A stretch of DNA of 38,526 nucleotides, taken from NCBI GenBank assembly GCA_004138175.2, contig RYFE02000048.1:1-38526 (forward strand), given 5' to 3'. The notes beneath the pieces are model-generated. The model did no database searches, was not told the origin of the DNA, and saw only the letters and a program-made list of their open reading frames with translations. Both the position numbers and the translations under genes were made by a program. Source of the DNA: Chloroflexales bacterium ZM16-3 (GTDB taxonomy: Bacteria > Chloroflexota > Chloroflexia > Chloroflexales > Chloroflexaceae). Below are positions 15,419 through 38,494 of this stretch, one piece after another; position 1 is the stretch's first letter, and every line of letters begins with the position of its first letter.

Positions 15419-15466
15419 TGGCCGCCAGAACAACATGTACACCCGTGCCAGCACAACGGTAGGCCG

Positions 15467-16486
15467 ATGAAATACTTCACACAAGGCAGAGCGCTCGTCA
15501 TTGGGGTCGGCTCCTACAGCGACAAGCGTTGGGATACGCCGACAGCCTCGCGCGACGCGCGAGGCTGCTACGATGCGCTGGTTGACCCCAACGGGGCTGG
15601 CTACGCGCGCAGCGCAGTCGAGATCCTGCTCGATACGGATGCGACCCGCGAGGGTGTCGGCAAAGCCCTTGAGCGCCTAGCCGACCGCTGCACCGCGGAG
15701 AGCGTGGTTTTTATCAGCATCACCAGCCACGGGGCTATGGGCGATGACGGGCTCTACTACCTGGCCACGAGTGACACGCAGTTCACCGTTGAGCGTGATG
15801 AGCATATCAGAGGCAAGACCGGCTTTAGCGTGGTTGACCTTGCACGAGCCCTACGAGCTATTCCATCTCGCCAGGTGCTGGTCGTTGTCAACTCCTGCTT
15901 CGCTGGGCACCTCGGGCCGCGTCTTGTCCAAGGACGGGTCGGCCCCGATAGCCTTATCGCTCTACCTGAGGCCGCAAGCCAGGAAATGCTCAAAACTGGT
16001 GAGGGACGTGCGATTATCAGTGCCAGCAAGCCAGATCAACGATCATTCTATCACCAGGGCGCAGATCATAGCTACTTTGGCCAAGCCCTCATCCATGCGC
16101 TCAAGGGAGGCCCCGAGAGCGAGCGCAGCGGCTACGTCGGCCTCTACGAGCTCTACACGACCATCTACTGGCAGGTCAGATCTGCCACAATGCGGGCGCA
16201 TCTCGCACAAGAGCCGACCCTAACCCTCGTGCAGGGGGTCGGGCCATTCCCGGTGGCGGCCTACCCACATGCGACCAGTCACGACGAGCGCATTAGCCAG
16301 GAGCTACCGCAAGGCACCGCGGTGCGCGAGCTGCCGCCGGGCCAAGGTATGGGCGCAGCCATCACCAACGCCGAGATCGCAGGTATCGTTGACGCGCGCG
16401 GAGCTAATTTTTCCGGCGCGAGAGGCGTGAACATCTCTGGCGTCACCATCGACGAGAGGCCGAAGCCCAGACAAGGGCAAGACTAG
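15467..16486 (+). CDS. caspase-like (peptidase C14) protease, probable conflict-system effector
   Basis: The 339-residue product carries a caspase/metacaspase p20-type domain in residues 5-200. It opens with RALVIGVGSY; catalytic His88 lies in ITSHGAMGDDG and catalytic Cys144 in VVNSCFAGHLG. Cleavage would follow a basic or acidic P1 residue as in other C14 peptidases; the pocket cannot be assigned by eye. After about residue 290 the tail has a short run like pentapeptide or beta-solenoid turns (ITNAEIAGIVDARGANFSG). The next gene, an ATPase 48 bp downstream, carries a similar run, suggesting that the two proteins dock there. In such modules the protease is held inactive until a STAND sensor detects a trigger. 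Confidence 0.9.
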   Translation: MKYFTQGRALVIGVGSYSDKRWDTPTASRDARGCYDALVDPNGAGYARSAVEILLDTDATREGVGKALERLADRCTAESVVFISITSHGAMGDDGLYYLATSDTQFTVERDEHIRGKTGFSVVDLARALRAIPSRQVLVVVNSCFAGHLGPRLVQGRVGPDSLIALPEAASQEMLKTGEGRAIISASKPDQRSFYHQGADHSYFGQALIHALKGGPESERSGYVGLYELYTTIYWQVRSATMRAHLAQEPTLTLVQGVGPFPVAAYPHATSHDERISQELPQGTAVRELPPGQGMGAAITNAEIAGIVDARGANFSGARGVNISGVTIDERPKPRQGQD

Positions 16487-16534
16487 CGATACAGGCTTTT
16501 TGGATGCAATGAGCTGAACGGGCGGTTATGACAT

Positions 16535-17455
16535 ATGAGCATGCTTGACTTTGATCCCGACACGTTCATCAACTGCGAGGTTGAGCGCCGGCTTTTTTCG
16601 AGCCTGCTGAGCGTTGCTGACCAAGCTCGTATCCTTGCCATCCGCGGGGCTTCGGGTACGGGCAAAAGCCAACTGCTGCGCAGCTTCGCCCACCAATGCC
16701 GAACCGCCTATCCTCGGCGCATCCCCGTATGTCTGGTCTCGCTTGACACACCTGGCGACGCAGTCCTGCCATTGGTTCAGGAGATGGAGCGTCAACTCAG
16801 CAGGTTTGGGTTGACCTTCCCGACCTTTAAGCAGATCGAGAGCGCCCGCGTCGCCAATGATTTCTCAAAGATTCGCGCATCGGTCCATCTTGAGGGCGCT
16901 ATCTTTGAAGGCGCAACGGATGTGCGCATCAGTGGTACGATGATCAACCCAGAGCGCGTTGAGATGATCAACATCAGCGCCGAGCGGGTAGAGTTTACCG
17001 CCGAGCAAGTTGACCTAGCCCAGGAGGTCAGTGTTAAGGCTTTCTTTGACGATCTGCGGGTACACTGTGCTCAGTCACCCGTCGTGCTTCTGCTCGATAC
17101 CTATGAGAAGTGTCGGCCGAGCGTGCATGCATGGATTAATGAATACTTTCTTGAGCGTCTCTTCTTCGACCTCGATCAGCGACCGCAGCAACTTATGACC
17201 GTGATCGCCGGCCAGGACACACCGCTATTTCAGCAATTCTGGCCACGGCATATGTGTGAGGTGATTGTCCAGATTGTGCCGCACCTCAGCGCCTGGGAGC
17301 GTGAACATATTGCCGCATATTGTTTGACGCTCGGCATTTCACCCGAATCTGCGCCAATCGAACCGATCTACCAAATCGCGCAAACTGGAGGCATGACCCC
17401 AGAACTGATCAAGAATATCATCAGCACCATGCAAAGCCAGGTGAGGCCCCGATGA
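16535..17455 (+). CDS. P-loop ATPase of the caspase module (NACHT/AAA-like)
   Basis: The 306-residue product has Walker A GASGTGKS (38-45) and Walker B VVLLLDTYE (183-191), followed by a lid-like helical region (residues 200-300). Between the two motifs, residues 113-164 form an insert of short beta-like turns (HLEGAIFEGATDVRISGTM and NISAERVEFTAEQVDL). This resembles the tail of the caspase and the pre-NACHT motif of the protein at 5390. The protein ends where a STAND NTPase would continue into its winged helix and sensor repeats; those are encoded by the next gene, whose ATG overlaps this stop as ATGA. It therefore looks like the motor half of a split STAND protein. Confidence 0.85.
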   Translation: MSMLDFDPDTFINCEVERRLFSSLLSVADQARILAIRGASGTGKSQLLRSFAHQCRTAYPRRIPVCLVSLDTPGDAVLPLVQEMERQLSRFGLTFPTFKQIESARVANDFSKIRASVHLEGAIFEGATDVRISGTMINPERVEMINISAERVEFTAEQVDLAQEVSVKAFFDDLRVHCAQSPVVLLLDTYEKCRPSVHAWINEYFLERLFFDLDQRPQQLMTVIAGQDTPLFQQFWPRHMCEVIVQIVPHLSAWEREHIAAYCLTLGISPESAPIEPIYQIAQTGGMTPELIKNIISTMQSQVRPR

Positions 17456-20343
17456 ACGCAGAGGCAAACCAGAATAAGCCTGACAGCAAAGCAGAGCAGC
17501 TGACAGCCCTCCTACGTGCTGGCCTCAGCTCGGCCGAACTCACCTGGCAGCTCTTCCAAATTAACTATAGCCAGGCCCTCGCGGACGACCCTCGTCTGGC
17601 TTTTGTACTGCGTGCGTGCGCCATCCCCAAGCAGTTCGATGCAGAAATCATCGGCGCACTACGTGATGCACGTGAAGCCATTGAGGAAAACGAAGCACTT
17701 CTCAGTGGATTGCAGCAATACAGCTTTGTGCAGCGCTTGCCGGAGGACGGCTTCGCCTACCACGATACAACTCGGGATCTTGTTCTCACTGATTGGCAAA
17801 CAGATGCGTGGCAAACTGAATATGAAATCCTGTGTCAGAGACTTGCTGATGTATATCTTGAGCGTGGCAAGCAGAAGAGTGACCGCAATGACTATGCTGG
17901 AGCACTGCAGGATTTCAGCCGCGCGTTGGAGCTATCCACTGAGGATGCTGCGCTCTATCGTAGACGGGCTGAAGCACAGGCTGACCTGGGGAACTATGAA
18001 GCGGCCTTTCAGGATGTGCAACGAGCTCTTGAATTAGAACCTGAACAGAGTCGGAACTATCGTATACGCGGCTATATTTATGCGAAACAAAAAGATTATG
18101 CGAATGCTTTGACAGATTATGTGAATGCGATCAAGTTGCAACCAAATGATGGGCTTAACTACCTTTGGCGCGGGATAGTCTATTACAACCAAGGTGAGTA
18201 CGCGGCGGCACTGGCCGACCTTACCCGTGCCATCGAGATCCAGCCCGATGATGGGAACAACTACTACTGGCGCGGGTGGATCTCCCACGCCCAGGTCAAC
18301 TATGCGGCAGCGCTGGCCGACTTCTCCCGCGCTATCGCGCTCCAGCCCGATGATGGGAACAACTACCAACAGCGCGGGCGGGTCTACCGCGACCAGCGCG
18401 CGTACGATGCGGCGCTGGCCGACTTCTCCCGTGCCATCGAGATCCAGCCCGAGAATGGGTACAACTACTTCTGGCGCGGGTGGGTCTACCGCGACCAGCG
18501 CGCATACGATGCGGCGCTGTCTGACCTCTCCCGCGCCATTGAGCTTCAGCCTAAGAATGGCACCAACTACCACGGGCGTGGGGTGGTCTACTACGACCAG
18601 GGCGAGTACGATGCGGCGCTGACCGACTTCTCCCGCGCTATTGAGCTCCAGCCCGATGATGATACTAAGTACTCCTGGCGTAGTCGAATCTACTACGACC
18701 AGGGCGAGTATACGGCGGCGCTGTCTGACCTTACGCGTGCCATTGAGCTTCAGCCTGAGAATGGCACCAACTACCACTGGCGCGGGCGGGTCTACTACGA
18801 CCAGCGTGCGTACGACACCGCCCTTGCCGACTTCTCTCGCGCTATTGAACTCCAGCCCGATGATGGGAACAACTACGCCTGGCGCGGGCGGGTCTACTAC
18901 GACCAGCGTGCGTATGACGCCGCCCTCGCCGACTTCACCCACGCCATCGCGCTCCTACCCGATGATGGGCGCAACTACCATTGGCGCGGACGGGTTTACT
19001 ACGACCAGCGCACGTACGACGCCGCCCTCGCCGACTTCTCCCGCGCTATTGAACTCCTACCTGAGAATTGGAACAACTACCATTGGCGCGGGCGGGTTTA
19101 CTACGACCAGCGTGCGTACGACGCCGCCCTCGCCGACTTCTCCCGCGCTATTGAACTCCTGCCCGAGAATTGGAACAACTACCACTGGCGCGGGCGGATC
19201 TACTACGACCAGCGTGCGTATGACGCTGCCCTGGCTGACTTCACCCGCGCCATCGATCTCTTACCCGAGAATGGGAGTAACTACTCCTGGCGCGGAAAGA
19301 TCTACCGTGACCAGAGAGTGTACGATGCGGCGCTGGCCGACCTCACCCGCGCCATTGAGCTCCAGCCGGAGAAGGATACTAACTACCAATTACGTGGGCT
19401 TGTCTACCTCGACCAGGAAGCGTATGATGCGGCACTAGTCGACGTTACCCACGCCATTGAGCTCCAGCCGGAGAATGGTATCAACTACTACTGGCGTGGA
19501 CTTGTCTACTACGACCAACGTACGTATGATGCGGCGCTGGCTGATCTCACCCACGCCATCGCGCTCCAGCCGGAGAATGGTATCAACTACTACTGGCGTG
19601 GGAGAGTCTACTTCGAGCAGGGGAAGTACGCAGCAGCGCTGGCTGATCTCTCTCGCGACATCGCACTCCAGCCTGATGACGATGAAAACCACTTAGCACG
19701 CGGGGTTGTCTATTACTTCCAAGGCAATTATGTAGCAGCGTTAACCGATCTCACTCGCGCTATCGCGCTCCAGCCTGAAAATGGAACCAACTACTTCTGG
19801 CGCGGGCGGGTCTACCACGACCATGGCACGTACGATGCGGCGCTGGCCGACCTCTCCCGCGCCATCGCGCTCCAGCCTGAAAATGGTCTCAACTACCACT
19901 GGCGCGGGCGGGTCTACCACGACCATGGCACGTACGATGCGGCGCTGGCCGACTTCACCCGCGCTATCGCGCTCCAGCCCAACGATGGGGACAACTACTA
20001 CTGGCGCGGGCTAGTCTACGTAGCGGTAAAGGCAACCGATCAAGCGCCAGCAGATTTTGAGCGAGCGACCGCACTCATTGAGAGCACCGAAGACGATTGT
20101 ATACGTCACCGCCTTGCTGCGCGCATGGCACTGCTTGAACAACATTTCGATAGAGCGCTTCAGCATTATAGCCAGGCCGAACAGAGCTGTGAGATCTATC
20201 GCCTCGCTATCGAGCTAGAAGCGCTTGAAGCCGCCGCAGCCGTCTTGCCAGATAACCCAGCAATCCCACAGGCCATAGCATGGCTCACACCGCGCCTGGC
20301 AATGCCAGCGCCAAGCACCGGCGAACCAGAGCTAGGCGCTTAA
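17452..20343 (+). CDS. winged-helix plus 22-TPR sensor protein of the caspase module
   Basis: I take the ATG at 17452, which overlaps the ATPase stop, over an upstream ATG at 17320 inside that gene; the product is 963 residues. Residues 1-125 look like the winged-helix/arm region that follows a STAND NTPase (LRACAIPKQFDAEIIGAL; YSFVQRLPEDGFAYHD). One TPR is followed by 21 uninterrupted 34-residue TPRs (161-874) with consensus LQPENGxNYYWRGRVYYDQ then AYDAALADFSRAIE. The last 90 residues are helical without repeats. A superhelix of this size is a typical ligand or partner-binding sensor. Repeats 9-14 are nearly identical in DNA, so copy number can probably change by recombination. Confidence 0.9.
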   Translation: MNAEANQNKPDSKAEQLTALLRAGLSSAELTWQLFQINYSQALADDPRLAFVLRACAIPKQFDAEIIGALRDAREAIEENEALLSGLQQYSFVQRLPEDGFAYHDTTRDLVLTDWQTDAWQTEYEILCQRLADVYLERGKQKSDRNDYAGALQDFSRALELSTEDAALYRRRAEAQADLGNYEAAFQDVQRALELEPEQSRNYRIRGYIYAKQKDYANALTDYVNAIKLQPNDGLNYLWRGIVYYNQGEYAAALADLTRAIEIQPDDGNNYYWRGWISHAQVNYAAALADFSRAIALQPDDGNNYQQRGRVYRDQRAYDAALADFSRAIEIQPENGYNYFWRGWVYRDQRAYDAALSDLSRAIELQPKNGTNYHGRGVVYYDQGEYDAALTDFSRAIELQPDDDTKYSWRSRIYYDQGEYTAALSDLTRAIELQPENGTNYHWRGRVYYDQRAYDTALADFSRAIELQPDDGNNYAWRGRVYYDQRAYDAALADFTHAIALLPDDGRNYHWRGRVYYDQRTYDAALADFSRAIELLPENWNNYHWRGRVYYDQRAYDAALADFSRAIELLPENWNNYHWRGRIYYDQRAYDAALADFTRAIDLLPENGSNYSWRGKIYRDQRVYDAALADLTRAIELQPEKDTNYQLRGLVYLDQEAYDAALVDVTHAIELQPENGINYYWRGLVYYDQRTYDAALADLTHAIALQPENGINYYWRGRVYFEQGKYAAALADLSRDIALQPDDDENHLARGVVYYFQGNYVAALTDLTRAIALQPENGTNYFWRGRVYHDHGTYDAALADLSRAIALQPENGLNYHWRGRVYHDHGTYDAALADFTRAIALQPNDGDNYYWRGLVYVAVKATDQAPADFERATALIESTEDDCIRHRLAARMALLEQHFDRALQHYSQAEQSCEIYRLAIELEALEAAAAVLPDNPAIPQAIAWLTPRLAMPAPSTGEPELGA
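17932..20073 (+). repeat. 21 tandem 102-bp repeats encoding TPRs
   Basis: The 102-bp unit repeats 21 times with no insertion or deletion, keeping the frame. The middle copies (about 18750-19350) differ at few positions and share long identical stretches, while the first two and last copies are more diverged. Confidence 0.95.
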
Positions 20344-20425
20344 TTTCGCGGCCGGTAGCGTCTGGATCTGGTTCACCAGGTTAAGCACCTGAGCGTACCA
20401 GGGCACTGCCCGACCCGATTCTTGT

Positions 20426-21454
20426 TCAAATCCACTGCTGCGCGTGCAGCTGCCCCCAGGCCAACGTAATGTGGTCGGCGCGGAACTGGCGCTTGCGCTC
20501 GTTCCAGGCGTGAACCTCCTCGGCCGCACGGTGCGCATCCTGACGTGCGGCCGGGCTCTCCTGCGCGACCCAGTGAACTGACGAGAGCAGCTCGACCCCA
20601 TACGGTGTCTCGTAGCCCTCGATGAGGTCGCCGACGCGGCTCAGGCGCACCTGGGTTTCCGGGTAGGCGTCGAGAACTGCCTGCGCTTCCTCAATCGCGT
20701 CTGGGAGTGGGTGCAGCGATATCTCCTGCGTGCGGTCGCCATAGCCGCGCACAAAGTGGCCATCGATACGCTGAAGCACATGGTGCAGCTTCTCGGAGTA
20801 CGGGCCATAACGCGCCTTCTCAAACTCCAATTTGAGCGGCTCACCGGCCGACTCCAGGAAGTAGGCGAGCTTCTGAATTTCGAGCATCGTCACCCGATAG
20901 CCCCGCGGCGCATATTGCTCGATCAGGCCCAAGATCGCGGCCCGCACGAGGGTCATTGATGGGCGCTTCGTTGCGACACGTATCGTCTCAGGATCAGGGG
21001 ATCCATCGGGGGCATAGAGTAGCACCCGGACATCGGGAAGCTCCGCAAAGGCCGCCTCGATCTTCGGGCGCACCGCATCCCAGCTCAGACCACCGTTGCC
21101 ACAGCCAAGGGGTGGCACCGCAATCGAGCCGATCTGATGGGCACGAATCGTGGCGATCAGGGCGGCCAGACCGGTGTCAATATCCTCCATCTGGGCTTTG
21201 CCGCGCCAGTGGCGCTTGGTCGGGAAGTTGATGATGTAGCGCGGGTTGGTCAACTGGCCCGTTGGCACGACAAACATCTGGCCGGGGACAACGTCGCCGC
21301 GCTTACAGGCGCTCTGATAGGCGCTAAAGTTGGCGGGGTATGCCTGGCGAAACTGAAGCGCGATGCCCTTGCCCATGACCCCCACCGTATTCACCGTGTT
21401 GACCAGCGCCTCAACGTCGGCATCGAGCAAGTTGCCGTGAGTATGCTCAATCAT
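20426..21454 (-). CDS. darG: DarG-type antitoxin with macrodomain
   Basis: The 342-residue product begins with an ADP-ribosyl-hydrolase macrodomain (1-155): GNLLDADVEALVNTVNTVG, then GVMGKGIALQFR and PPLGCGNGGL, which line the ADP-ribose site. This domain removes ADP-ribose from DNA modified by DarT. The C-terminal half (165-342) is the DarG-type toxin-binding region, including LGLIEQYAPRGYRVTMLEIQ and the ARYGPYSEKLHHVL segment. The gene lies 11 bp downstream of darT in an xre-darT-darG operon. Length and motifs are normal, so the antitoxin should be functional. Confidence 0.95.
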   Translation of the reverse strand: MIEHTHGNLLDADVEALVNTVNTVGVMGKGIALQFRQAYPANFSAYQSACKRGDVVPGQMFVVPTGQLTNPRYIINFPTKRHWRGKAQMEDIDTGLAALIATIRAHQIGSIAVPPLGCGNGGLSWDAVRPKIEAAFAELPDVRVLLYAPDGSPDPETIRVATKRPSMTLVRAAILGLIEQYAPRGYRVTMLEIQKLAYFLESAGEPLKLEFEKARYGPYSEKLHHVLQRIDGHFVRGYGDRTQEISLHPLPDAIEEAQAVLDAYPETQVRLSRVGDLIEGYETPYGVELLSSVHWVAQESPAARQDAHRAAEEVHAWNERKRQFRADHITLAWGQLHAQQWI

Positions 21455-22685: not shown

Positions 22686-22743
22686 GCCCCGTTCGCTATA
22701 GAAATGCTCCTGCCAAGCTGGCATGCGACCCTGCCCGGATTCG

Positions 22744-25700
22744 TCACGCCGCGGCGGCGTCCCCCTGCTCCGCCGCCCCGACATCGACCGGGCGCAGGAG
22801 CAGCAGCCATCCGGTCGCCTGCGCGAACGCCTCCTGGGCCGCCTGAACCGCCGCCGCATCGAGGTGTCCGCGATACCGGGCCTCCACCAGCTGCCGCTGG
22901 GTGTACACCGACAGCGGCAGCACCAGCTCGGCTCCCGCGGGCAGCGCCGCGCGCGCCGCCGCCTCCAGCGCCGTGTGCTGCGCATGCGGGCGTACCCGCA
23001 CCGCCCAGCCCGTGCGCCGCACCACCTCCGCCAGTTGCTCGGCGTGGCGCTGGATGTCGGCGTGCGGCAGCGGGAAGCGCACGATCACGAATCCGTTGGT
23101 ATGATCCAGGTCGATCTGGAGGACCGCCTCGGCAAGCACCTCCTGGGTGATCGCTCGTGCCACTGACCGCTCACAGCGATCCACAGCCGGTGTCCCAACT
23201 ACCAGCTGATGCTTGGCCTTCGCGGGCGCGGGCTGCGGCACACCCCCTGGCACGATCACCGGAGCGGCCACCGGCACCACCTCAACCGCAAACCCGGTGC
23301 GCGCCGTGATCGCCGTCAGCGCAGCCGCCAGCGCCTCTGCCGATGGCTCGCCCTGGCAGACCACGGTCACCCGGCGCGCTCCCTGAACCACCGTGGGGAC
23401 GCCTTTGATCGTCACGATCGGTCGTAGGTGGAGCTGGATGATATTCAGCAATGCCGTGAGATCCGTCTCCGCGTTGATCGCCACGCGCACCGGTAGCTCG
23501 GCCCGCAGCGCCGCCAGCTGCGCGCCATAGCGCGTCTCGGCCGTCAGCGGAAAGCGAAAACGCAGCGTGACGTCGCCAGTCTCGGAGTCGATACTGCGCC
23601 GGTACAGGTCGCTCGCCCCGCGCAGGTGCCAGTCAATCCGCTGCTGGATGGCGTGCGTGTCCGGTCGCGGCTGGGCGGCATCCTCCTCACGCGCATCCTC
23701 CCAGCGCGTCGCCAGCCGCACCGACCAGCGCGCATCCTGGAGCGGGCGCGCGGCGGGCATCATGGCGAACATGCGCGGGTTCGCCACCACCAGCCGGGCG
23801 ATATGCAGCCGCCAGGCCAGATCATCAACCGGCTGGCCGACCGTCGCCACCAGGGTGTCAAGCTCGTAGCTCTGTGCCGGGTCCATGACTGCGGCGACCG
23901 CGCGGGCCGAGACGTGGCTGCGCTGGGTGCGGCTCTGGAGCAGCCAGTCGTCGATTACCCGCTGCTGGGCGTCATCGGGGGCACCGGCCGGGACATCCCA
24001 GTGGCCAACCCAGGCCAGCACATCGCGGACGCCCACGAGCTGGTGGGCGGGCGCGCGGCTTGGCCCCACGCCGCTGATCACTCCCCCCGCCACGTGCGTA
24101 CAGAACCAGGGTGCCACGGTCGTGCCATTGACCCGGGCCAGGATGAGGCTGCCCGCCTCCACGCGCGGCGTCTCCACCGGCGCGCTTTGGCGCAGCGCGG
24201 CGGGCGGCAGCAGGCGGTAGAACCCGGCCAGGGCCGAGATCGGCTGGAAGCGCTGCGGGGCGGTAGCCAGCACCGCCACCACGGCCTGGATCTCCTCCGG
24301 CGTACCCTCAGCCCCGTACCAGCGCCGCGCCACCGCGCGGGCCTCGACCACCACCGGCTCAACCGGGCGCCCCTCCTCCTCCCAGAGCGCCACGGCCAGG
24401 GCCTCTGCGGTCGTAGGGGCTGCCTGCCGGGTGTGCGCGGGAAGGGCATGGGTGACGGGCTGGGCGACCGCCCGCCTGGTCGTCGGCACATGCAGCACAT
24501 TGCCGGTTGGGGGGAGCACCACCGACATCCCGCTGGCCCGCAACGCGGCGGCCAGGCCACCCCGCGCGCCGCCGTCGCCGTGAACCAGCGCGACCATGCG
24601 CGGGCGGATCTGCTGGGCGAACCCGACCAGCTCGGCCTGATCGGCGTGGCCCGAGAGGTAGTAGGTCATCACCTTCGCCGCGACGGTGACGGTCTGCTCG
24701 CCCAGCACCACGGCGTTCCGCTGGCCGGCGGCCACCTGCTGAAGCGCTCGGCCGGGAGCCTCCTCGTCCTGATAGCCGGTAAGCGCCACGGTCGCCTCGG
24801 GGCGTGTGAGCAGACGCTCGGCATACCAGCGGCTCGGCCCGCCGGTCAGCATCCCCGAGCTGGCGATGATGCATGCGGGCTGCCCCTGGAGGATGCCCTT
24901 GCGCTGGCTGGGTTCGACCATGTGGATCGTGTCGGTGAAGAACACCGGCTGGCCGCGCACAACCCGCTGGCGCACAGCGGGGCTGAGGAAGGTCGGGATG
25001 GTGCTGTAGGCGGCGCAGACGCGGCGCACCAGCCCGTCGACCCAGACCGTGAAGTGCGGGATCGCGCGCTGCCGTTGGGCCTCCTGGAGGATGAGGATCA
25101 CCTCCTGGGCGCGGCCAAGCGCGAAGGCCGGGATCAGCACGTGGCCGCCCCGCTGGATGGCCGCCGCCACCTCGGCGGCCAGGCGCTGCTCCTCCATGTG
25201 CCGGGGTGCATGCGCGCGCCCGCCGTACGTGGACTCCAAGATCAAGAGGTCGGGCTGGGTGACGAGCGGCGGCTGGGCGCCCTGGATGGTACGCTGCGGA
25301 GCGACGCTGATGTCGCCGGAGATGACGACCCGCCCCTCGGGGTGCTCCAGGCCCACGCTCACCGCCCCAGCGATGTGGCCGGCCAGGCGCAGCGAGATGA
25401 CCAGGCCGGGGATCTCGGGGATGGCGTGGCGATCATCGACCGCCAGCGGCGTCAGGCGGCGCAACATCTGCTCGACCGCCGCGCTATCGTACAGCGGCAG
25501 CTCCAGCTCCTCGGCGGCGCGCTTCTCCATCACGGCGATGGCGTCGGCCAGCATGATCGTCATGAGCCGGATGCTGGCGGCGGTGGTGTAGATCGGCGCG
25601 CTTGGGAAGCGCTGGTGGAGGATCGGCAGCGCGCCGATGTGGTCGGCGTGGGCGTGGGTGATCACGATGGCCGCGACGTGCGCGCCATCCAGGGCGGAGA

Positions 25701-25839
25701 AATCGGGGAGCCGCTCCTCGGCGGCCCCGCTCATACGCACGCCGGCATCGACGACGAGCCACGAGTCACCGAAGCGCACGGCAATACAGCTTGCGCCAAC
25801 CTCCGAAGCCCCGCCGAGAAAGGCAACGTCAAACGTCAT
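22744..25839 (-). CDS. beta-CASP metallo-beta-lactamase hydrolase with long C-terminal extension
   Basis: The 1031-residue product opens with a metallo-beta-lactamase domain: HAHADH (62-67), the AGHIAGA histidine and the VISGD aspartate. A beta-CASP insertion follows with motif A (ESTYGG) and SSGMLTGGPS, then motif B (LSGHADQAEL) and motif C (LVHGD). That is the layout of RNA-processing nucleases of the CPSF/RNase J type, and all metal ligands are present. Family members are usually 450-550 residues. Here another 550 residues follow with no domain I can name; within them two segments resemble each other (RFRFPLTAETRYGAQLAALR and VRFPLPHADIQRHAEQLAE) and may be duplicated alpha/beta modules. 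The ATG is preceded by AGGACACCT. Likely a nucleic-acid hydrolase of the element. Confidence 0.9.
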   Translation of the reverse strand: MTFDVAFLGGASEVGASCIAVRFGDSWLVVDAGVRMSGAAEERLPDFSALDGAHVAAIVITHAHADHIGALPILHQRFPSAPIYTTAASIRLMTIMLADAIAVMEKRAAEELELPLYDSAAVEQMLRRLTPLAVDDRHAIPEIPGLVISLRLAGHIAGAVSVGLEHPEGRVVISGDISVAPQRTIQGAQPPLVTQPDLLILESTYGGRAHAPRHMEEQRLAAEVAAAIQRGGHVLIPAFALGRAQEVILILQEAQRQRAIPHFTVWVDGLVRRVCAAYSTIPTFLSPAVRQRVVRGQPVFFTDTIHMVEPSQRKGILQGQPACIIASSGMLTGGPSRWYAERLLTRPEATVALTGYQDEEAPGRALQQVAAGQRNAVVLGEQTVTVAAKVMTYYLSGHADQAELVGFAQQIRPRMVALVHGDGGARGGLAAALRASGMSVVLPPTGNVLHVPTTRRAVAQPVTHALPAHTRQAAPTTAEALAVALWEEEGRPVEPVVVEARAVARRWYGAEGTPEEIQAVVAVLATAPQRFQPISALAGFYRLLPPAALRQSAPVETPRVEAGSLILARVNGTTVAPWFCTHVAGGVISGVGPSRAPAHQLVGVRDVLAWVGHWDVPAGAPDDAQQRVIDDWLLQSRTQRSHVSARAVAAVMDPAQSYELDTLVATVGQPVDDLAWRLHIARLVVANPRMFAMMPAARPLQDARWSVRLATRWEDAREEDAAQPRPDTHAIQQRIDWHLRGASDLYRRSIDSETGDVTLRFRFPLTAETRYGAQLAALRAELPVRVAINAETDLTALLNIIQLHLRPIVTIKGVPTVVQGARRVTVVCQGEPSAEALAAALTAITARTGFAVEVVPVAAPVIVPGGVPQPAPAKAKHQLVVGTPAVDRCERSVARAITQEVLAEAVLQIDLDHTNGFVIVRFPLPHADIQRHAEQLAEVVRRTGWAVRVRPHAQHTALEAAARAALPAGAELVLPLSVYTQRQLVEARYRGHLDAAAVQAAQEAFAQATGWLLLLRPVDVGAAEQGDAAAA

Positions 25840-25924
25840 AGGTGTCCTGCCCGATACGTTGCGGTGATGTCAGTGGAAGAAGATCGCCACATGTTCGTGA
25901 TTTTGCTATACCATTGTAGCATGG

Positions 25925-25953
25925 TTGGTCTATTGGATACCCTGTGGTATACT
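25925..25953 (+). promoter_or_regulatory. promoter of the parA operon
   Basis: TTGGTC (25925-25930), 17 bp, then TATACT (25948-25953) with GG before it. Octad array A starts two bases after the -10 box and fills the whole leader, so binding of the partner protein there would block transcription as well as mark the site. Confidence 0.6.
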
Positions 25954-25954
25954 T

Positions 25955-26046
25955 CGCACTACTGCGATTGTGCGTTACTGCGATTGTGCGTTACTGCGAT
26001 TGTGCGTTACTGCGATTGTGCGTTACTGCGATTGTGCGAATTCGCA
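25955..26046 (+). repeat. octad array A: 12 TGCG/CGCA boxes at strict 8-bp spacing
   Basis: CGCA or TGCG occurs every 8 bp from 25955 to 26043 without a slip. The central part is five copies of the 16-mer ACTGCGATTGTGCGTT (25961-26040). It sits between the parA promoter and its ribosome site. Arrays of short phased boxes in this place are the usual operator-centromere of parA operons with ribbon-helix-helix partners. Confidence 0.9.
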
Positions 26047-26066
26047 GCGTTAGGGAAGGAGTGACT

Positions 26067-26843
26067 ATGGCGCATGTGATTGGGCTCTGCATGCAGAAGG
26101 GGGGCGTCGGAAAGACGACGACAACCCTGAACCTTGGGGCGGCGATGGCGGCCCGAGGACACAAGGTGCTCCTGATTGATATTGACCCTCAGGCTAATCT
26201 GACTCAGGGGCTAGGGCTCGACCCTGCAGACCTTGAGTACTCGATCTACGAGGTGCTGCTCAACATCGAGGCCGGCACCGCGTTCGCCACACAGACGATC
26301 AGCGCAGGGCTTGATATCATCCCCTCTACTCTGGCACTCGCGGGCGCCGAGCTGGAGCTGGCTGGTAAGGTCGGGCGTGAGTTGCTGCTGCGGAAGGCGC
26401 TGCGTGCCGCAAGGAGCGTCTACGACTACATCTTGATTGACCCCCCGCCCTCGCTGGGCCTATTTACACTGAATACAATGGCGGCTGCCGATACAGTGCT
26501 AGTGCCGCTTCAGGTGCATGCCTATGCACTTAAGGCGATGCCCCAGCTTGAGGCGACCATCGACCTGGTGCGTGACCTGAACCCACCGCTGACTATCGGC
26601 GGCATTGTCTGTACGCTTGTGGATCGACGCACCAACTTGAGTCAGGCGGTGGAGCGACAGATTCGCAGTACATATGGCGATCTCGTTTTTACAACGACGA
26701 TCCCGATGAATACCAAGCTCGCAGAGGCACCGGCGGCGGGCGAGTCGATCAGGATGTATGCGCCCAGTAGCGCCGGCGCGGTTGCGTATGAGGCATTGGC
26801 CGAAGAGCTGGAGGCTCGCTATGGCAGCGAAAAGGAAGCTTGA
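26067..26843 (+). CDS. parA: ParA/Soj-family partition ATPase
   Basis: The ATG at 26067 is preceded by GGGAAGGAG and gives 258 residues; an upstream open stretch only translates array A and is not used. The deviant Walker A motif is KGGVGKTT (11-18), followed by LLIDIDPQANLT (Walker A') and LIDPPPSLG (Walker B-like). It lacks the N-terminal HTH of P1-type ParA, so it is the small type Ib form, which works with a short ribbon-helix-helix protein. ATP-bound dimers coat the nucleoid and move partner-bound plasmid copies apart. The stop lies 23 bp inside the next gene. Confidence 0.95.
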   Translation: MAHVIGLCMQKGGVGKTTTTLNLGAAMAARGHKVLLIDIDPQANLTQGLGLDPADLEYSIYEVLLNIEAGTAFATQTISAGLDIIPSTLALAGAELELAGKVGRELLLRKALRAARSVYDYILIDPPPSLGLFTLNTMAAADTVLVPLQVHAYALKAMPQLEATIDLVRDLNPPLTIGGIVCTLVDRRTNLSQAVERQIRSTYGDLVFTTTIPMNTKLAEAPAAGESIRMYAPSSAGAVAYEALAEELEARYGSEKEA

Positions 26844-27246
26844 CGATATGCTGGCCGATGAGAATAGCAAGCCGGTCATCCGCCGCGGGCAGGGCGTGCG
26901 CCTCTCTACTGAAGAAGCACCACCAGTGGTACTAGGCGCGCAGGATCGCACTATCGCAGAAACGCAGGATCGCACTATCGCAGAAACGCAGGATCGCACT
27001 ATCGCAGAAACGCAGGATCGCACTGTCGCAGAAACGCAGGATCGCACTGTCGCAGAAACGCAGGATCGCACTGTCGCAGAAACGCGGTCGAACACGACAA
27101 AGCGCGTGAATCGGGGATACATGCTGCGAGAGGATCTTATCCTCGGCTGCAAGCGACTTGCCCTCAATGATGGACGTAAGCTCTACGAGGTTATGGAAGA
27201 GGCGCTTGCGGAATATCTGAGCCGCCACGGCCAGGCTGCCTCGTAG
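26821..27246 (+). CDS. ribbon-helix-helix centromere-binding protein with octapeptide repeats
   Basis: The 141-residue product starts inside parA. Residues 1-39 are basic and flexible (MAAKRKLDDML, PVIRRGQG), as in ParG-like tails that stimulate the ATPase. Residues 41-88 are six copies of QDRT(I/V)AET. Residues 95-138 look like a ribbon-helix-helix fold: strand NRGYMLRE, then LILGCKRLALNDG and KLYEVMEEALAEYLSRHG. I infer it is the ParG/omega-type partner that binds the octad arrays. The repeat block is exactly octad array B, so the peptide repeat follows from DNA sites kept inside the gene; the 24-bp unit happens to be a whole number of codons. No known family has this middle block that I can recall. 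Confidence 0.82.
   Translation: MAAKRKLDDMLADENSKPVIRRGQGVRLSTEEAPPVVLGAQDRTIAETQDRTIAETQDRTIAETQDRTVAETQDRTVAETQDRTVAETRSNTTKRVNRGYMLREDLILGCKRLALNDGRKLYEVMEEALAEYLSRHGQAAS
26939..27082. repeat. octad array B: 18 CGCA boxes inside the RHH gene
   Basis: Six 24-bp units, each made of octads CGCAGGAT, CGCACTRT and CGCAGAAA, lie head to tail with no spacer. The first three units have A and the last three have G at the R position, pointing to block duplication. Read on the minus strand the boxes are the TGCG form seen in array A. Confidence 0.95.
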
Positions 27247-27252
27247 CGAAAT

Positions 27253-27296
27253 CGCATATCTGCGATCCTGCGATTTCGCAGGATCGCACTTTCGCA
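27253..27296. repeat. octad array C with 12-bp perfect hairpin
   Basis: Six TGCG/CGCA boxes at exact 8-bp steps (27253, 27261, 27269, 27277, 27285, 27293) begin just after the RHH stop codon. Boxes change orientation in the centre, which makes GCGATCCTGCGA (27262-27273) and its inverse (27276-27287) a perfect stem. It lies upstream of the antirepressor gene and may regulate it. Confidence 0.88.
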
Positions 27297-27354
27297 ACGA
27301 CATCGGACTCCTGATTACGGCAGTCCAATATAGAAATAGGAACTGTAGGCAGAT

Positions 27355-28164
27355 ATGAGCGAGCAACAGGGAGGCGAGATCCTCATCCCCAACGAAATCA
27401 AGACGGTGGACTTCTATGGTGACCCCATCACTGGGGCGCTCGTGCGCGTGGGCGAGGAGTCGCGGATTTATGTTCCGCTACGCCCAGTGTGTGACTACCT
27501 GCAACTTGACTGGTCATCCCAGCGCAAACGTATTAATCGGGACGAGGTGCTAAAGGAAGAGATAAAAGGGGTGGTCATAATGACCACCCCTGGCGGCCCG
27601 CAAGAGATGATCTGCCTGCCGCTTGATATTCTCCCTGGCTGGCTGTTTGGCATCACCCCAGGAAAAATCACTGACCCCGCTCTGCGTGAGAAGATTACGC
27701 GCTATCGACGTGAGTGCTACCGCCGACTCTGGGATGCCTTCGCTCCCAGCATCCTGCCGGCCATTACAGCCGCACCTGTCGAGCGGCAGCCGAGCGGCGC
27801 ACAGCTTGCTTATGAGCTGGCGACCGCTGTCCAGAATTTGGCTCGCGACCAGATAGATCTTGAGGCGCGCATGGGCAAAGCTGCCCACTGGGCCAAGGGT
27901 ATCGAGAGCCGCGTTACTGCCCTGGAGCTGCGGCTGGAGGGTGATGAACCCATCAGTGAGAGCCAGGCTGCTGATTTGGCCCTATCCGTCAAGAACGTGG
28001 CACATTTGCTCACAAGCAAGGGCACACAGAATGGCTACGGGCGTGTGTATGGAGAGCTCTACCGCCGTAACGGTATCACCAGCTACAAAACTCTTCCCCG
28101 GTCACGATTTGACGAAGTGATGCGCTGGCTTCAATCCTGGCACGACGAGCTCTCTGTTGAATAG
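27355..28164 (+). CDS. phage antirepressor-like protein (P22_AR_N plus ORF6C-like)
   Basis: The 269-residue product has an antirepressor N-terminal domain in residues 25-130: IYVPLRPVCDYLQLDWSSQ, then KRINRDEV and LPLDILPGWLFGITP. A helical linker follows (150-205), then a C-terminal DNA-binding-like domain (YGRVYGELYRRNGITSYKTL). In phages such proteins counter repressors or act as regulators. Here the gene lies between octad arrays C and D, 108 bp after the partition genes on the same strand, so it may be regulated by the RHH protein or modulate it. Function in partition or replication control is a guess. Confidence 0.85.
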   Translation: MSEQQGGEILIPNEIKTVDFYGDPITGALVRVGEESRIYVPLRPVCDYLQLDWSSQRKRINRDEVLKEEIKGVVIMTTPGGPQEMICLPLDILPGWLFGITPGKITDPALREKITRYRRECYRRLWDAFAPSILPAITAAPVERQPSGAQLAYELATAVQNLARDQIDLEARMGKAAHWAKGIESRVTALELRLEGDEPISESQAADLALSVKNVAHLLTSKGTQNGYGRVYGELYRRNGITSYKTLPRSRFDEVMRWLQSWHDELSVE

Positions 28165-28235
28165 CGAGCCTGCTATGTAGCAGACACATCCGATGGCGTT
28201 CTTCCCGCCTAAGCGACCACGAGTAGGTCATTTAC

Positions 28236-28303
28236 TGCGATACTGCGATACCGCATTTATGCGATACTGCGATATCGCAGTATCGCATTATCGCAGTATT
28301 GCA
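28236..28303. repeat. octad array D between antirepressor gene and dnaB
   Basis: Eight TGCG/CGCA boxes plus one TGCA at exact 8-bp steps from 28236 to 28303. Boxes on the left are mostly TGCG and those on the right mostly CGCA, so the array is roughly an inverted repeat (GATACTGC facing GCAGTATC). It lies between the convergent ends of the antirepressor gene and dnaB. Confidence 0.92.
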
Positions 28304-28336
28304 GCCCAGACCAATGCTACTCTAGACTGGCTCTTT

Positions 28337-29680
28337 TCAGGAACCTCCATAGCCGACCGGCGCACGGTAGTGCTCCAGGTTCTGAAACTGCGTCGTCCGC
28401 CCCTCGAAATGCAGCGGTATCACCCCCAGCGGCCCGTTGCGGTGTTTGAGCACGTGCAGATCCACAATGCCCTTGCGGTCGGAGTCCTTGTCGTAGGTCT
28501 CATCCCGGTACAGCCCAATCGCGATGTCGCAGTCCTGCTCAATCGCCCCCGACTCGCGGAAGTCCGACAGCACCGGCACGTGGTTGGGCCGCTGATCCAC
28601 ATTCCGCGAGAGCTGGGAGAGCGCCAGCACCGGCACGTCCAGCTCGCGGGCCAGCTGCTTTAGGCCCCGGCTGATCTCCGCCACCTCCTGCACCCGGTTC
28701 TCCCCCCGCCCGCTCCCCGTCATCAGCTGGAGGTAGTCCACGCACAGCAGCGCGATCTTCTGCTGCGCGCACATCCGCCGCGCGCGGTAGCGCAGGCCGC
28801 TCATGCTCAGCGCCGGGGTGTCGTCGAGGTAGATCGGCAGTTCGCCCAGGTGACCCATCCCCGCAAAGGCCAACGCCAGCTCGTCATGACTCAGATCACC
28901 GACTCGGATGCGCTGGAGATCCAGCCCGGTGTGCATCGCCAGCATGCGCTGGGTCAGCTGGTCACGGCCCATCTCCATCGAGAAGATGCCCACGCCCTCG
29001 CCGGCGTGGTGCGCCACGTTGTAGGTGATCGACAGCTCCAGCGCCGTCTTGCCCTGGCTCGGGCGCGCGCCGACCACGATCAGATCGCCCTTCTGGAGCC
29101 CGCCGGTAAGCCGATCCAGCCCGATGAAGCGGGTGATCACGCCCGTGGGCTCGCCGCGATGCTCCTGACGCCGCTCCATCGCCGTGAACAGCTCATTGAC
29201 CGCCTGGCTGATCGGGACGTAGCCCGTGGTGGCGGTGCGCCCGCGCACGCCCTCTAGCCGGGCCTCGGCCTGGCTGAGCACGTCATCGAGATCGTCGTCC
29301 TCGCGGTAGCCCAGCGCCGCAATCGTCCCGCCCGCCTCAATCAGCCGACGCAAGGTGGCCGCCCGGCGCACGTTCTCGGCGTAGTAGGCGACATGCACCG
29401 CCGTGGGCACCTCGCTGAGCATCTCGCCCAGGAAGGTCAGCCCGCCAACCAGATCGATCTGCTCGCGTCGGCGCAGCTCGCCCGCGACCGTCGCGAGGTC
29501 GGGCGGCACGCGCTGCGCATAGCAGGCCAGCATCGCCGCGTAGACCGTGCCGTGCTTTTCAAGGTAGAAGTCATCCGGCGTGAGCGTGTCGGCGATGGCG
29601 ATGATCGCCTCGCGCTCCAGCAGGATCGACCCGAGGGTCGCCCGCTCGGCGGTCAGGTCGAAGGGGACGCTTTTCTCCAT
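28337..29680 (-). CDS. dnaB: replicative DNA helicase DnaB
   Basis: The 447-residue product has the DnaB N-terminal helical domain (AERATLGSILLE; LEKHGTVYAAML) and the RecA-like helicase domain. Walker A is GARPSQGKT (204-212), Walker B VDYLQLM (314-320), and motif H4 includes LSQLSR. It forms the hexamer that unwinds DNA at the fork. It lies seven bases after the putative initiator gene, as the loader/helicase genes do in phage and plasmid replication operons. Length and motifs are normal; it is likely the element's own copy in addition to a chromosomal one. Confidence 0.95.
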   Translation of the reverse strand: MEKSVPFDLTAERATLGSILLEREAIIAIADTLTPDDFYLEKHGTVYAAMLACYAQRVPPDLATVAGELRRREQIDLVGGLTFLGEMLSEVPTAVHVAYYAENVRRAATLRRLIEAGGTIAALGYREDDDLDDVLSQAEARLEGVRGRTATTGYVPISQAVNELFTAMERRQEHRGEPTGVITRFIGLDRLTGGLQKGDLIVVGARPSQGKTALELSITYNVAHHAGEGVGIFSMEMGRDQLTQRMLAMHTGLDLQRIRVGDLSHDELALAFAGMGHLGELPIYLDDTPALSMSGLRYRARRMCAQQKIALLCVDYLQLMTGSGRGENRVQEVAEISRGLKQLARELDVPVLALSQLSRNVDQRPNHVPVLSDFRESGAIEQDCDIAIGLYRDETYDKDSDRKGIVDLHVLKHRNGPLGVIPLHFEGRTTQFQNLEHYRAPVGYGGS

Positions 29681-29687
29681 AGTTTCC

Positions 29688-31607
29688 TCAGTGCTGCTGC
29701 GTCTGCGCAGGGATGTTGAGCGCGGCCATCAGCTCCGGCGGCAGCGGGTATTCGGCGAGCAGGCGGCGCAGGACGACTTGCTTGGCGGGCTTGCTCGGCG
29801 CATCGTTGTAGCGCCCAAACCACAGCCGCCGCAGCTCTTGATTCTCCAGCGCCGGGTGGTAGTCAAGCACGGAGGACGGGATGCGCGGCGCATCGGTCGG
29901 TATGCTGGTGGCAGAAGACACCCCGGCAGCGACCTCGCGGTCATAGCGCTCCAGCAGGCCGTCAAAGTGCGCCCAGTTGGCCTTGGTCTGGTACTGCGCA
30001 TGCCAATTTGTCAGCACCGCCTCCCAGGCCGGGCGATCCGTGACCCGCACGATGATCTGCTGCGCCCGCGTCAGCGTGATCGCCACGCGCGGGCCGGCGA
30101 ACTGGCGCCAGGCCACCAGCGCCCAATGCTGCTCCAACTCCGCTGGCAGGGGGGTGCCAGCGGGTGCCGCCTCGGGTGCCGCCGGGGCCTTGCCGCGTGG
30201 AACGCGGTCAGTTGGTGTCGCTACGTGGGCGACACTAGGTGCGATGCTTTCGGCGCGCTGCTCCTTTGGTCGGCGGCACAGCTCCTCCGTGCTCCAGTCG
30301 TTCCGCTCCTGCATGCGGCGCAGGATGCCAGCGGCGTAGTTGATGCTCAGCGGAGCCTGCTCTTCGAGCGCCACACTGCTCAGCGCACGCCCCAGCCAAT
30401 AGGCCGCGTGGCCCTGACTGGGCTGCTCAAAGCGCAGCACAATCTCCTTGATTCGCCGGATATCGACCGATGAGGGCGTCTGTCGGCTGACCTCGGCCCA
30501 GATCGCAACCGGGCCGGCGTCGATTGCGGGTTCACCTGCCGGTGCTGCGGGGATGGGTTCGTCCTGCGGGCGCGGTACGGGCGTGAAGGTCGTCCCAATC
30601 CCGAAACTAGATAACGCCTCGTGGATGGCTGGGCGCAGGCTGTCCTGAATCAGTTGACGAATGTCATCCGGCGTGGGCGTGTGTGCAGCCCTCACCCCCA
30701 CATCCCTCCCTACATCCCTCCCTCCCCACATCCCTCCAACGACCTCCAAGGATGTCGGCTGCGGTCCCCCTGGGATGGCAGGTGCCCCCAGAAGGTCGGT
30801 TGCCGTCATCCAGGGATGTTGGTTGCCGTCATCCAGGGGTGTCGGCACCTCCTGAATCGTGATGCCCGCCATCCTCGGATGTTGGCTGGGAACATCCTGC
30901 GGTGTCGGCTGAACTAGGATGTGCGGTGCCGTCATCGCCGGATGCTGGCTACCGTCATCGCCGGATGGCAGCGGCGTTGGGGTGACGGCACCCGTCCCCC
31001 GGCGAGGTCGGGCCGCTGCCATCCTGCCGTAGCCCATCCTCCGCCGAGGTCGGGCAGGTGCGCCGCCCACGATGGGGGGCGGCGCATTGTCCCCGTCTCC
31101 GCTGGGCGCGGGCAGTCCAGCGAGTTCTAGCGCGGTCTGCCCTGGCGACGGTCGGATCACGCGCAGCGGCGGCGGCAGGTTCTCGGCGCGCAGGTCGTGG
31201 ACGACGACCTGCGCGCTCTCCTTGCGCAGCCGGTCGAGGTCAATCTTGTAGTGCGCCGTCCAGAACGCGGGGGCGAGCCCTTTGATCTCGCGGTGGCCGA
31301 TGACATCGACCAGCTGCTTCGCGCAGAGGCCGCGCAGGTAGGCCGGGATGCGCCCGCGGCTGATGCCCGGCGCGTAGCGGGCGATCTCGGAGGCGGTGAA
31401 GTCGGTGCGGCCCACCGCCGCAAACAGCAGGGTGAGGTAGTGCAGGGCGTCGAAGGTCTCCTTCTCGCCCAGGTTCTTGCCGCAGCGGTGATTGACGATC
31501 CGTGGCCGGGGCGGGGCCATCAGGTCGGGGGACGCCTTGTGCAGGAGCAGATCGGCGATGGGGTCATGCACCTCCACCGGGGGACGGTTCGCGGTGATCG
31601 CGATCAT
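29688..31607 (-). CDS. putative replication initiator or helicase-loader-like protein
   Basis: I take the ATG at 31607 (AGGAGG seven bases before it, ATGA overlap with the upstream gene), giving 639 residues; a longer frame starts in that gene and is not used. Residues 35-130 resemble a winged-helix DNA-binding domain (FTASEIARYAPGISRGRIPA; LRGLCAKQLVDVIG). Residues 150-370 are Pro-rich and low in complexity, including four 21-residue repeats with QHPxMT. The C-terminal part (430-639) is helical, with RAQQIIVRVTDRPAWEAVL. No family is certain. The position before dnaB and after the iteron array, and the domain-linker-domain plan, recall lambda O: origin-binding domain, repeat-rich middle, helicase-contacting tail. 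Confidence 0.7.
   Translation of the reverse strand: MIAITANRPPVEVHDPIADLLLHKASPDLMAPPRPRIVNHRCGKNLGEKETFDALHYLTLLFAAVGRTDFTASEIARYAPGISRGRIPAYLRGLCAKQLVDVIGHREIKGLAPAFWTAHYKIDLDRLRKESAQVVVHDLRAENLPPPLRVIRPSPGQTALELAGLPAPSGDGDNAPPPIVGGAPARPRRRMGYGRMAAARPRRGTGAVTPTPLPSGDDGSQHPAMTAPHILVQPTPQDVPSQHPRMAGITIQEVPTPLDDGNQHPWMTATDLLGAPAIPGGPQPTSLEVVGGMWGGRDVGRDVGVRAAHTPTPDDIRQLIQDSLRPAIHEALSSFGIGTTFTPVPRPQDEPIPAAPAGEPAIDAGPVAIWAEVSRQTPSSVDIRRIKEIVLRFEQPSQGHAAYWLGRALSSVALEEQAPLSINYAAGILRRMQERNDWSTEELCRRPKEQRAESIAPSVAHVATPTDRVPRGKAPAAPEAAPAGTPLPAELEQHWALVAWRQFAGPRVAITLTRAQQIIVRVTDRPAWEAVLTNWHAQYQTKANWAHFDGLLERYDREVAAGVSSATSIPTDAPRIPSSVLDYHPALENQELRRLWFGRYNDAPSKPAKQVVLRRLLAEYPLPPELMAALNIPAQTQQH
30744..30995. 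repeat. four 63-bp tandem repeats inside the putative initiator gene
   Basis: CATCCNNGGATG-like palindromic boxes recur at 30807, 30830, 30870, 30893, 30933 and 30956, that is with spacing 23, 40, 23, 40, 23; weaker copies lie at 30744 and 30767. The unit is therefore 63 bp (21 codons, and six turns of B-DNA) and contains two boxes. Just to the left (30695-30740) is a pyrimidine-rich tract of CATCCCTCC units. Confidence 0.85.
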
Positions 31608-37897: not shown

Positions 37898-38075
37898 GGC
37901 GGCGAATCCTCCAGATACCGGAGGATGCCGCGTGGCAGGGGGCATAGACCATGACGCACGGCGATCCTCCAGGGTGCCTCATAAGCCTGAGGCGCTGGCT
38001 GCACCGGCGAAGGACAACTCCGGTGCGAACGGCCCCACCGCTGTCGCGGGGTGGGCCGGGATCGCCGCGATTGAT

Positions 38076-38162
38076 GGTACAATCGCTCCCAGCCTCACGC
38101 CTGCTCATATCAGGTGTGGGGTGAGAGGTTGCGTAGGAGGGTCCAAGCTCCTACGTGGCCTC
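38076..38162 (+). ncRNA. structured intergenic element with two hairpins
   Basis: TGGTACAAT (38075-38083) is a good extended -10 box. Downstream, an 11-bp stem with two G-U pairs (38093-38103 with 38111-38121) is followed by a perfect 8-bp stem CGTAGGAG/CTCCTACG (38132-38139 with 38148-38155) enclosed by GAGG/CCTC. No plus-strand gene follows. On the minus strand it would lie in the leader region of the gene at 37897. It fits a small RNA or a leader structure. The rest of 37898-38203 shows no gene; TATTAG/CTAATA around 38188-38205 may end the HTH gene transcript. Confidence 0.35.
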
Positions 38163-38203
38163 GTCACTTCTTGTATATATACTATTAGGAAAAACTAATA
38201 CTG

Positions 38204-38437: not shown

Positions 38438-38494
38438 AGAACAAATCTACCATCTGCAATCAAAAATCTGCAATAGCGGGCGGGGGTTGAGAAT

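Follow-up and report, generated by a model that had tools for sequence, protein, structure and literature searches.

A plus-strand trio of genes on a 38,526-base contig of Chloroflexales bacterium ZM16-3 (RYFE02000048.1), consisting of parA, a gene for a ribbon-helix-helix (RHH) protein, and a P22_AR_N gene, is accompanied by four arrays in which TGCG or its reverse complement CGCA recurs at an exact 8-bp step. The trio and its arrays probably constitute a type Ib-like ParA-RHH partition module in which the RHH protein coats the 8-bp octads, which would serve as centromeres and operators, one array lying within the linker-coding sequence of the RHH protein itself. The complete contig (C71 of the 127 contigs of a 6.27-Mb genome) is referred to here as the window; other genomes, contigs, and loci carry G, C, and L numbers. 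The type Ib features present are a ParA without an N-terminal DNA-binding extension, an adjoining small partner with a C-terminal RHH domain, and repeats upstream of the operon (array A). Neither a ParB/helix-turn-helix (HTH) partner, as in HTH-ParB ParABS systems, nor the heptads of pSM19035 were found. The spacing rule between RHH proteins and their centromeres is known from few plasmids, and a family whose box, register, and reader can be set side by side from locus to locus makes that rule testable. A phased array inside the gene of its own putative reader would show how a single sequence can double as linker and binding site.

Strict 8-bp TGCG/CGCA chains of at least three boxes occur exactly four times in the window, with 44 boxes in total and at least six in every array (Table 1). 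The first-pass annotation, made from the sequence alone, had counted about 45 boxes in four blocks; a further slot of array D, at position 28300, reads TGCA. First-order Markov simulations (n = 200) gave a mean of 0.19 chains of at least three per window and a longest chain of 4. The annotation had described box orientation as uniform in arrays A and B and mixed in C and D; this holds for B, in which all 18 boxes are minus, and for C (-++---) and D (++-++---), but in A the first and last boxes are reversed, so that 10 plus boxes are flanked by 2 minus boxes. The 4-bp TGCG core is separated by spacers that are 62 to 86% A+T. Array B lies entirely within the RHH gene, where it encodes six 8-residue repeats, QDRT(I/V)AET, and array D lies where the P22_AR_N gene and dnaB converge, between their 3' ends. 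Across the 6.27-Mb genome, a three-box pattern on one strand only gave 39 matches, 26 of them in the four arrays; the remaining 13 are isolated triplets, 10 of which are on contig C65.

The same box and step recur beside related reader genes, which were collected by protein search and not by array. A search with the RHH protein against 158 genomes of the class left 11 that passed an E value of 0.001, four of which hold RHH loci (the genome of the window, G053, G082, and G086). The others (G058, G033, G035, G039, G040, G005, and G046) were dropped as relatives because their matches were mainly to linker residues, although not each one was read. With G504:C76 from a collection scan and G082:C45 from a search with ParA, the accepted RHH loci are six: the window, G082:C32, G053:C194, G504:C76, G086:C164, and G082:C45. 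G504 is labeled as a metagenome-assembled genome of Acidobacteria, and C76 may be misbinned. Widening the RHH search to 400 genomes from the phylum, and to 297 from that of G504, returned no further accepted loci. Loci L058 to L060 and L156 were read and rejected as RHH loci, and L056 was rejected because no RHH-like frame was present among the open reading frames listed near the match. One plasmid record and two phage records matched the RHH protein mainly in the repeated linker and were also rejected; among viral contigs, RHH alignment gave no relative, and ParA gave two contigs at 36% identity.

TGCG/CGCA arrays in a single 8-bp register were found at three of the five other RHH loci (G082:C32, G053:C194, and G504:C76), where they occupy both the parA leader and the interior of the RHH gene; the composition of the window predicts 0.06 such arrays per 38.5 kb. 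Dinucleotide shuffles reached the leader counts in 0 of 2,000 trials for each of the window, G082, G053, and G504, and the in-gene counts in 0, 0, 7, and 0 of 2,000, respectively. In all four loci, the spacers before TGCG favor WTWN (44 boxes in the window, 31 in G082, 13 in G504, and 12 in G053). G082 has five array sites spread over 9.8 kb, some of them 4 to 5 kb from parA, and G504 has two. G053 has three, one of which counts only if TGCA is accepted and lies beyond the P22_AR_N gene of that locus, as array D does in the window. In G082, G053, and G504, the 200 bp that follow the RHH gene contain no counterpart of array C. The earlier suggestion of several centromeres, or of one centromere plus operators, is reasonable because more than two array sites recur in G082 and G053, though not in G504, an arrangement reminiscent of pSM19035 with its six parS sites.

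Inside the RHH gene, the 8-bp phase is kept at the DNA level, a constraint that the first-pass annotation had missed. The observed in-register counts within the gene are 18 in the window, 9 in G082, 7 in G504, and 6 in G053. Synonymous recoding with local codon usage reached these counts in 0, 0, 4, and 29 of 2,000 trials, respectively, and permutation of each gene's own codons did so in 0, 0, 23, and 98 of 2,000. The linker encoded in G504 and G082 is not an evident amino acid repeat.

The putative reader of these boxes resembles RHH proteins in its C-terminal 52 residues. In a profile search, its best match among solved structures was omega of pSM19035 (2bnw, E value of 0.0042; 1irq, E value of 0.0087), and the modeled domain has a strand-helix-helix order with a mean predicted local distance difference test (pLDDT) score of 85.5. 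Foldseek and VIA-align returned mostly RHH proteins with weak scores (E values of at least 0.39; Z scores of at most 4.7, which prove nothing alone). ParG was absent from the profile, Foldseek, and VIA-align matches listed. Pfam alone gave 56B_RHH at an E value of 0.019, under the family's cutoff, and no ParB family (E value of 0.1), while PHROGs and NCBIfam gave no family at an E value of 0.001. The full-length model is poor (pLDDT of 61) and was used only for disorder; residues 33 to 61 have pLDDT scores below 50. The four array-bearing RHH proteins have RV[NS]xGxxLR in common in the predicted strand, whereas the proteins of G086 (RDNAKIR) and G082:C45 (ERQSVRIR) lack it and their loci lack TGCG arrays. 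Strand sequence and box correspond across the six RHH loci. This supports the annotation's association of the arrays with the RHH gene, the two loci without them differing in the predicted DNA-reading strand.

In the proposed mechanism, the RHH protein would dimerize through its C-terminal domain, and the dimer would read TGCG boxes of either orientation at the 8-bp step, forming a cooperative filament along each array. The N-terminal sequence IRRGQGVRLST would dock on ParA and stimulate its ATPase, an effect that in type Ib partners comes from an arginine in a flexible N terminus. The nucleoid would then be the surface on which DNA bearing the arrays is moved or retained. The leader array A could also be an operator for self-repression, as possibly could array C; the positions of B, within its reader gene, and of D, where two genes converge, seem better suited to centromere sites.

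A number of observations weigh against a partition module of this kind. The omega match is weak (E value of 0.004), Foldseek gave no E value below 0.39, and the in-gene count of G053 is weak under codon permutation (98 of 2,000). With a looser score that accepts three of the four box letters, shuffles reached the observed value for the leaders in 25, 0, 46, and 13 of 2,000 trials (window, G082, G053, and G504) and for the genes in 0, 80, 88, and 2 of 2,000. No TGCG array was found in G082:C45 or G086. In the latter, an 8-bp TAAG phase after the gene (reached in 13 of 500 shuffles on one unit) is suggestive of another box used at the 8-bp step; a repeat of about 104 bp inflates this signal, and the leader is without clear phase (25 of 300 shuffles). 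In G504, the array and RHH gene adjoin a decayed parA (L053, 5227 to 5993), which is frameshifted and has GGVDRTTT as its Walker A motif, while the RHH gene and arrays remain. The 38.5-kb contig, at most a putative plasmid, has no end overlap. A scan of 25800 to 28400 found no sigma-70-like promoter, and a promoter that had been seen by eye upstream of array A was dropped for that reason. Finally, 8-bp CGCA arrays also occur in G040 at sites without par genes: L030 (G040:C266; satellite at 1444 to 1788), a locus picked up in the RHH search through a linker match, holds a 33-copy TCGCATCC tandem repeat between ferrochelatase-like and DnaE-like frames, and the pattern of three TCGCATCC units has 24 matches on six G040 contigs. 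In G016, two four-box chains follow a DUF-type gene.

These arrays, together with the 10 triplets on C65 and the repeat structure of arrays A and B, in which Tandem Repeats Finder identified units of 16 bp (2 octads; 4.9 copies, 100%) and 24 bp (3 octads; 6.1 copies, 99%), invite the explanation that the arrays are octamer satellites dispersed in the genome, or tandem units of 16 and 24 bp grown by slippage, that lie at par genes by chance, the 8-bp phase being a leftover of such units. That explanation is quite unlikely. Tandem copying does not describe arrays C and D or those of G082 and G504: several have boxes in both directions, and the spacers differ in most slots (10 of 10 in the G082 gene and 9 of 9 in the G504 gene); the in-gene counts, moreover, exceed synonymous recoding. 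A search of seven further genomes, including that of the window and all those with accepted RHH loci, gave no match to the three-unit G040 pattern. Outside the par modules, a scan of 162 loci found in-register sets of at least four boxes in L030, L032, L041/L048, L097, and L145; the arrays of L030 and L041, like the G040 satellites in general, are unidirectional with one to four spacer types, and L032 is a 24-bp repeat. Spacer A+T is 57 to 95% in 13 par arrays versus 29 to 50% in eight others, and the spacers of the par arrays are mostly varied, with both directions present in 9 of the 13. Because CGCA octamer arrays exist without par genes, a par site cannot be recognized from box and step alone; together with A+T-rich, varied spacers and with place, they mark it better. 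The first-pass annotation had named similar arrays away from par genes as evidence against its proposal, and such evidence exists in part, although the G040 arrays are of another make. As observations on these repeats themselves, the G040 satellites also include GAGGCGAA octamers, and the ten triplets on C65 (L150) are TGCGGCTTTGCGGCTTTGCG-like and lie within about 14 kb.

Alternatively, the arrays might be operators only, at which the RHH protein represses both parA-RHH and the P22_AR_N gene, without partition of DNA being the purpose. Repression is a common function of RHH proteins, the parA leader is taken up by array A, array C stands just before the P22_AR_N gene, and P22_AR_N-like genes recur near the ParA clade (tblastn matches in L054, L093, L095, L097 to L099, L101, L107, L108, L111, and others). 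However, array B is part of a coding sequence, D separates two genes that converge, some G082 arrays are 4 to 5 kb from parA, and the N-terminal motif of the RHH protein is common to other ParA partners, so operators as the sole function are unlikely. We consider it very improbable that the arrays are replication iterons or the ends of a transposing unit. Such roles would suit the adjacent dnaB, the position of arrays A and D 25 and 45 bp inside the module edges, and the inverted match between part of A and part of D (29 nucleotides, 86%), but no transposase or replication initiator was recognized among the three proteins of the module, and relatives have arrays within the RHH gene itself or, in the case of G082, also at some distance from the two genes. 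An inverted repeat (28243 to 28304, 84% complementary) also lies at array D.

The partition reading gains context from the relatives of ParA, whose two other kinds of partner had likewise escaped the first-pass annotation. ParA proteins of at least 52% identity to that of the window are set apart from the next ones, at 43 to 49%, among the matches listed. Fifty ParA loci were analyzed, leaving out G062:C3382, G022:C167, and G022:C69 (52 to 65% identity); the gene after parA encodes an RHH protein in 5, an alpha/beta-hydrolase in 27, and a DUF3102-like or unassigned protein, here called DUF-type, in 18. The two hydrolase partners tested matched Abhydrolase_1 (E values of 3.7e-28 and 2.5e-28). 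Three DUF-type partners were tested: L097 matched DUF3102 (E value of 1.3e-5), L104 matched HTH_ParB alone (0.028), and L111 matched nothing. In the ParA tree, which does not include G504 with its broken parA, the hydrolase type forms one clade (94/94), the RHH and DUF types do not form clades, and three partner changes suffice. No TGCG/CGCA chain of four was found at the 27 hydrolase-type ParA loci.

A short motif, [RKQ]Gx[GP]xx[LVI][ST], defined on these same partner proteins, is present within the first 110 residues of 41 of 51 partners (all 27 of the hydrolase type, 5 of 6 RHH proteins, G082:C32 being the one that lacks it, and 9 of 18 of the DUF type). None of the 51 has it at residues 111 to 220, a range that few RHH proteins reach. 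Partners of ParA/MinD ATPases dock or act via a charged N terminus, as the cited parts of PMC10241942 describe, and the motif may be the corresponding dock on ParA. With one short motif on three partner kinds, the clade is a natural experiment in the exchange of cargo by ParA ATPases. In 27 loci (L065 to L086, L088 to L091, and L106), ParAs 68 to 76% identical to that of the window precede an alpha/beta-hydrolase with an IRRGxGLRLST-like N terminus; in G006 and G064, which are single-contig genomes, the ParA-hydrolase pair is on the main contig. The hydrolase is possibly a cargo positioned by ParA. P22_AR_N (Ant-like) genes recur beside members of this clade, whether the ParA partner is an RHH protein or of the DUF type (the window, L054, L093, L097, L098, L107, and L111).

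Some of the DUF-type genes contain a site of their own, the palindrome CGCAAWTTGCG or CGCAAAATGCG, mostly about 540 to 650 bases into the gene; at L093, L095 to L101, and L157, CCGCAAWTTGCGG or a variant lies inside or just after a DUF3102-like gene. L099 has five copies and L100 has three plus one unlike site, with fewer or none elsewhere. Under synonymous recoding, the in-gene excess of CGCA-N2-5-TGCG is clear for L099 and L100 (0 of 1,000 each), moderate for L096, L101, and L098 (11, 12, and 39 of 1,000, two of the three L096 sites having another sequence), and weak for L093, L094, and L102 (117, 246, and 260 of 1,000); the other 10 of the 18 DUF-type loci have no such site in the gene. These tests are partly circular because the motif was found in those loci, and only its rarity elsewhere counts. 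Among 12 genomes searched for CCGCAAWTTGCGG, the seven holding DUF-type loci have 17 sites, of which 7 are inside DUF-type genes beside ParA, 9 are just after such genes (G014 and G016), and 1 falls within a further DUF3102 gene, in G037; counts in the five remaining genomes are 0, 2, 1, 0, and 2. A tentative possibility is that in this ParA lineage the reader gene itself stores the partition site. The RHH octads and the DUF3102-like palindrome (CCGCAAWTTGCGG or the CGCAAAATGCG variant), both in linker-coding stretches, would then be convergent in-gene centromeres of two unrelated partners, and a third branch would have swapped DNA for an alpha/beta-hydrolase cargo while keeping only the short docking motif.

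In TP228 parH, the spacers are 4 bp and the box is ACTC, unlike the TGCG of the window. The window also differs from TP228 in having an array inside the reader gene, and ParG is not among the profile matches listed. The likeness to ParF-ParG-parH is one of layout and not of homology: tetramer boxes with AT-rich spacers and an RHH partner with a flexible N terminus, according to the cited sections of PMC7308502 and PMC5016525. The first-pass annotation had treated the 8-bp step as a variant with a different register, but it is not new in kind, given the boxes and spacers of parH described there (PMC7308502). The nearest model is the delta-omega system of pSM19035, whose omega protein is the best profile match of the window protein. 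As described in the cited part of PMC9499535, it too combines ParA and a small RHH partner with several arrays of short, nonpalindromic, contiguous repeats, direct and inverted, over promoters; the RHH protein binds 7-bp repeats in either direction at six promoter-overlapping parS sites, and ParA is activated only from four contiguous repeats upward. The repeats there are WATCACW heptads, in contrast to the 8-bp step and TGCG core of the window, which also has an array inside the RHH gene and a long, repeat-encoded linker. The pSM19035 genes are transcribed apart (PMC5016525, in the part cited), whereas parA and the RHH gene overlap here.

An in-gene site is not new in itself, because the parS of the Streptomyces ParA-ParT-parS system of SCP2 lies within the coding region for the very protein that reads it (PMC12260392, as excerpted). 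ParT, however, is ParB-like and reads an 18-bp inverted repeat, in contrast to the RHH protein and 18-box array of the window, and no array inside an RHH gene was found in the parts of the open-licence papers that were searched. ParA/MinD cargo-positioning systems use the same kind of ATPase, with partners docking by a charged N terminus (PMC10241942, cited sections); the relatives of the window differ in pairing ParA with an alpha/beta-hydrolase.

The borders of the module are defined by comparison with G034, of the same genus. Contig C122 of G034 aligns to window positions 22716 to 24907 and 25034 to 25929 at 91 to 93% identity and to 28349 to 30742 at 80%, and the intervening 25930 to 28348 is swapped there for about 3.3 kb of other DNA. 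The left break falls 25 bp before array A and the right break 45 bp past the last (TGCA) slot of array D. The module between these synteny blocks is, from the alignments, an exchangeable segment. Two 1-kb segments within it have a G+C content of 57 to 59%, versus 67 to 73% in the three preceding ones.

Table 1. Coordinates of the module, its arrays, and the genes on either side
Feature	Position	Strand	Description
RNase J-like gene	22744-25839	-	
Exchanged module	25930-28348		All DNA between the two synteny blocks with G034:C122
Array A	25955-26046	+	12 octads; parA leader; orientation -++++++++++-
parA	26067-26843	+	258 amino acids; Pfam AAA_31, 1.1e-53; PHROG 164 ParA-like, 8.5e-63
RHH adaptor gene	26821-27246	+	141 amino acids; start overlaps parA stop by 23 nucleotides
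IRRGQGVRLST codons	26878-26910	+	Proposed ParA-docking motif, from motif comparison across partners
Array B	26939-27078	-	18 octads; linker-coding part of the RHH gene
Ribbon-helix-helix domain	27088-27243	+	Profile match to omega; strand-helix-helix model
Array C	27253-27296		6 octads; intergenic, RHH gene to P22_AR_N gene
P22_AR_N (anti-repressor Ant-like) gene	27355-28164	+	269 amino acids; Pfam P22_AR_N, 1.4e-27; PHROG 524 anti-repressor Ant, 1.9e-33
Array D	28236-28303		8 strict octads ending at 28295 and a further TGCA slot; flanked by converging genes
dnaB helicase	28337-29680	-	Pfam DnaB_C, 3.3e-90; adjoins the module but is not part of it

The trio lies between the RNase J-like gene and dnaB, both on the minus strand. 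Its ParA is a ParA/Soj-type ATPase with the sequence KGGVGKTT, the Walker motif KGGVGKT being residues 11 to 17. The 15 PLSDB matches to ParA among those listed are all 44 to 47% identical, and no replication initiator was recognized among the window proteins scanned. Either a replicon or an integrated element could underlie the contig. Six dnaB-like matches are present in the genome; the dnaB of the window is 90% identical to the copy on C50 and 64% identical to that on C84. Elsewhere in the window, positions 5339 to 21454 hold a defense-like cluster with NACHT ATPase, caspase-domain, TPR, and macro-domain proteins and with type I restriction-modification genes (HsdM, 7977 to 10421; HsdR, 11659 to 14697). 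Positions 37919 to 38474 match G034:C122 twice, and one of the two matches falls in the segment found there in place of the par module.

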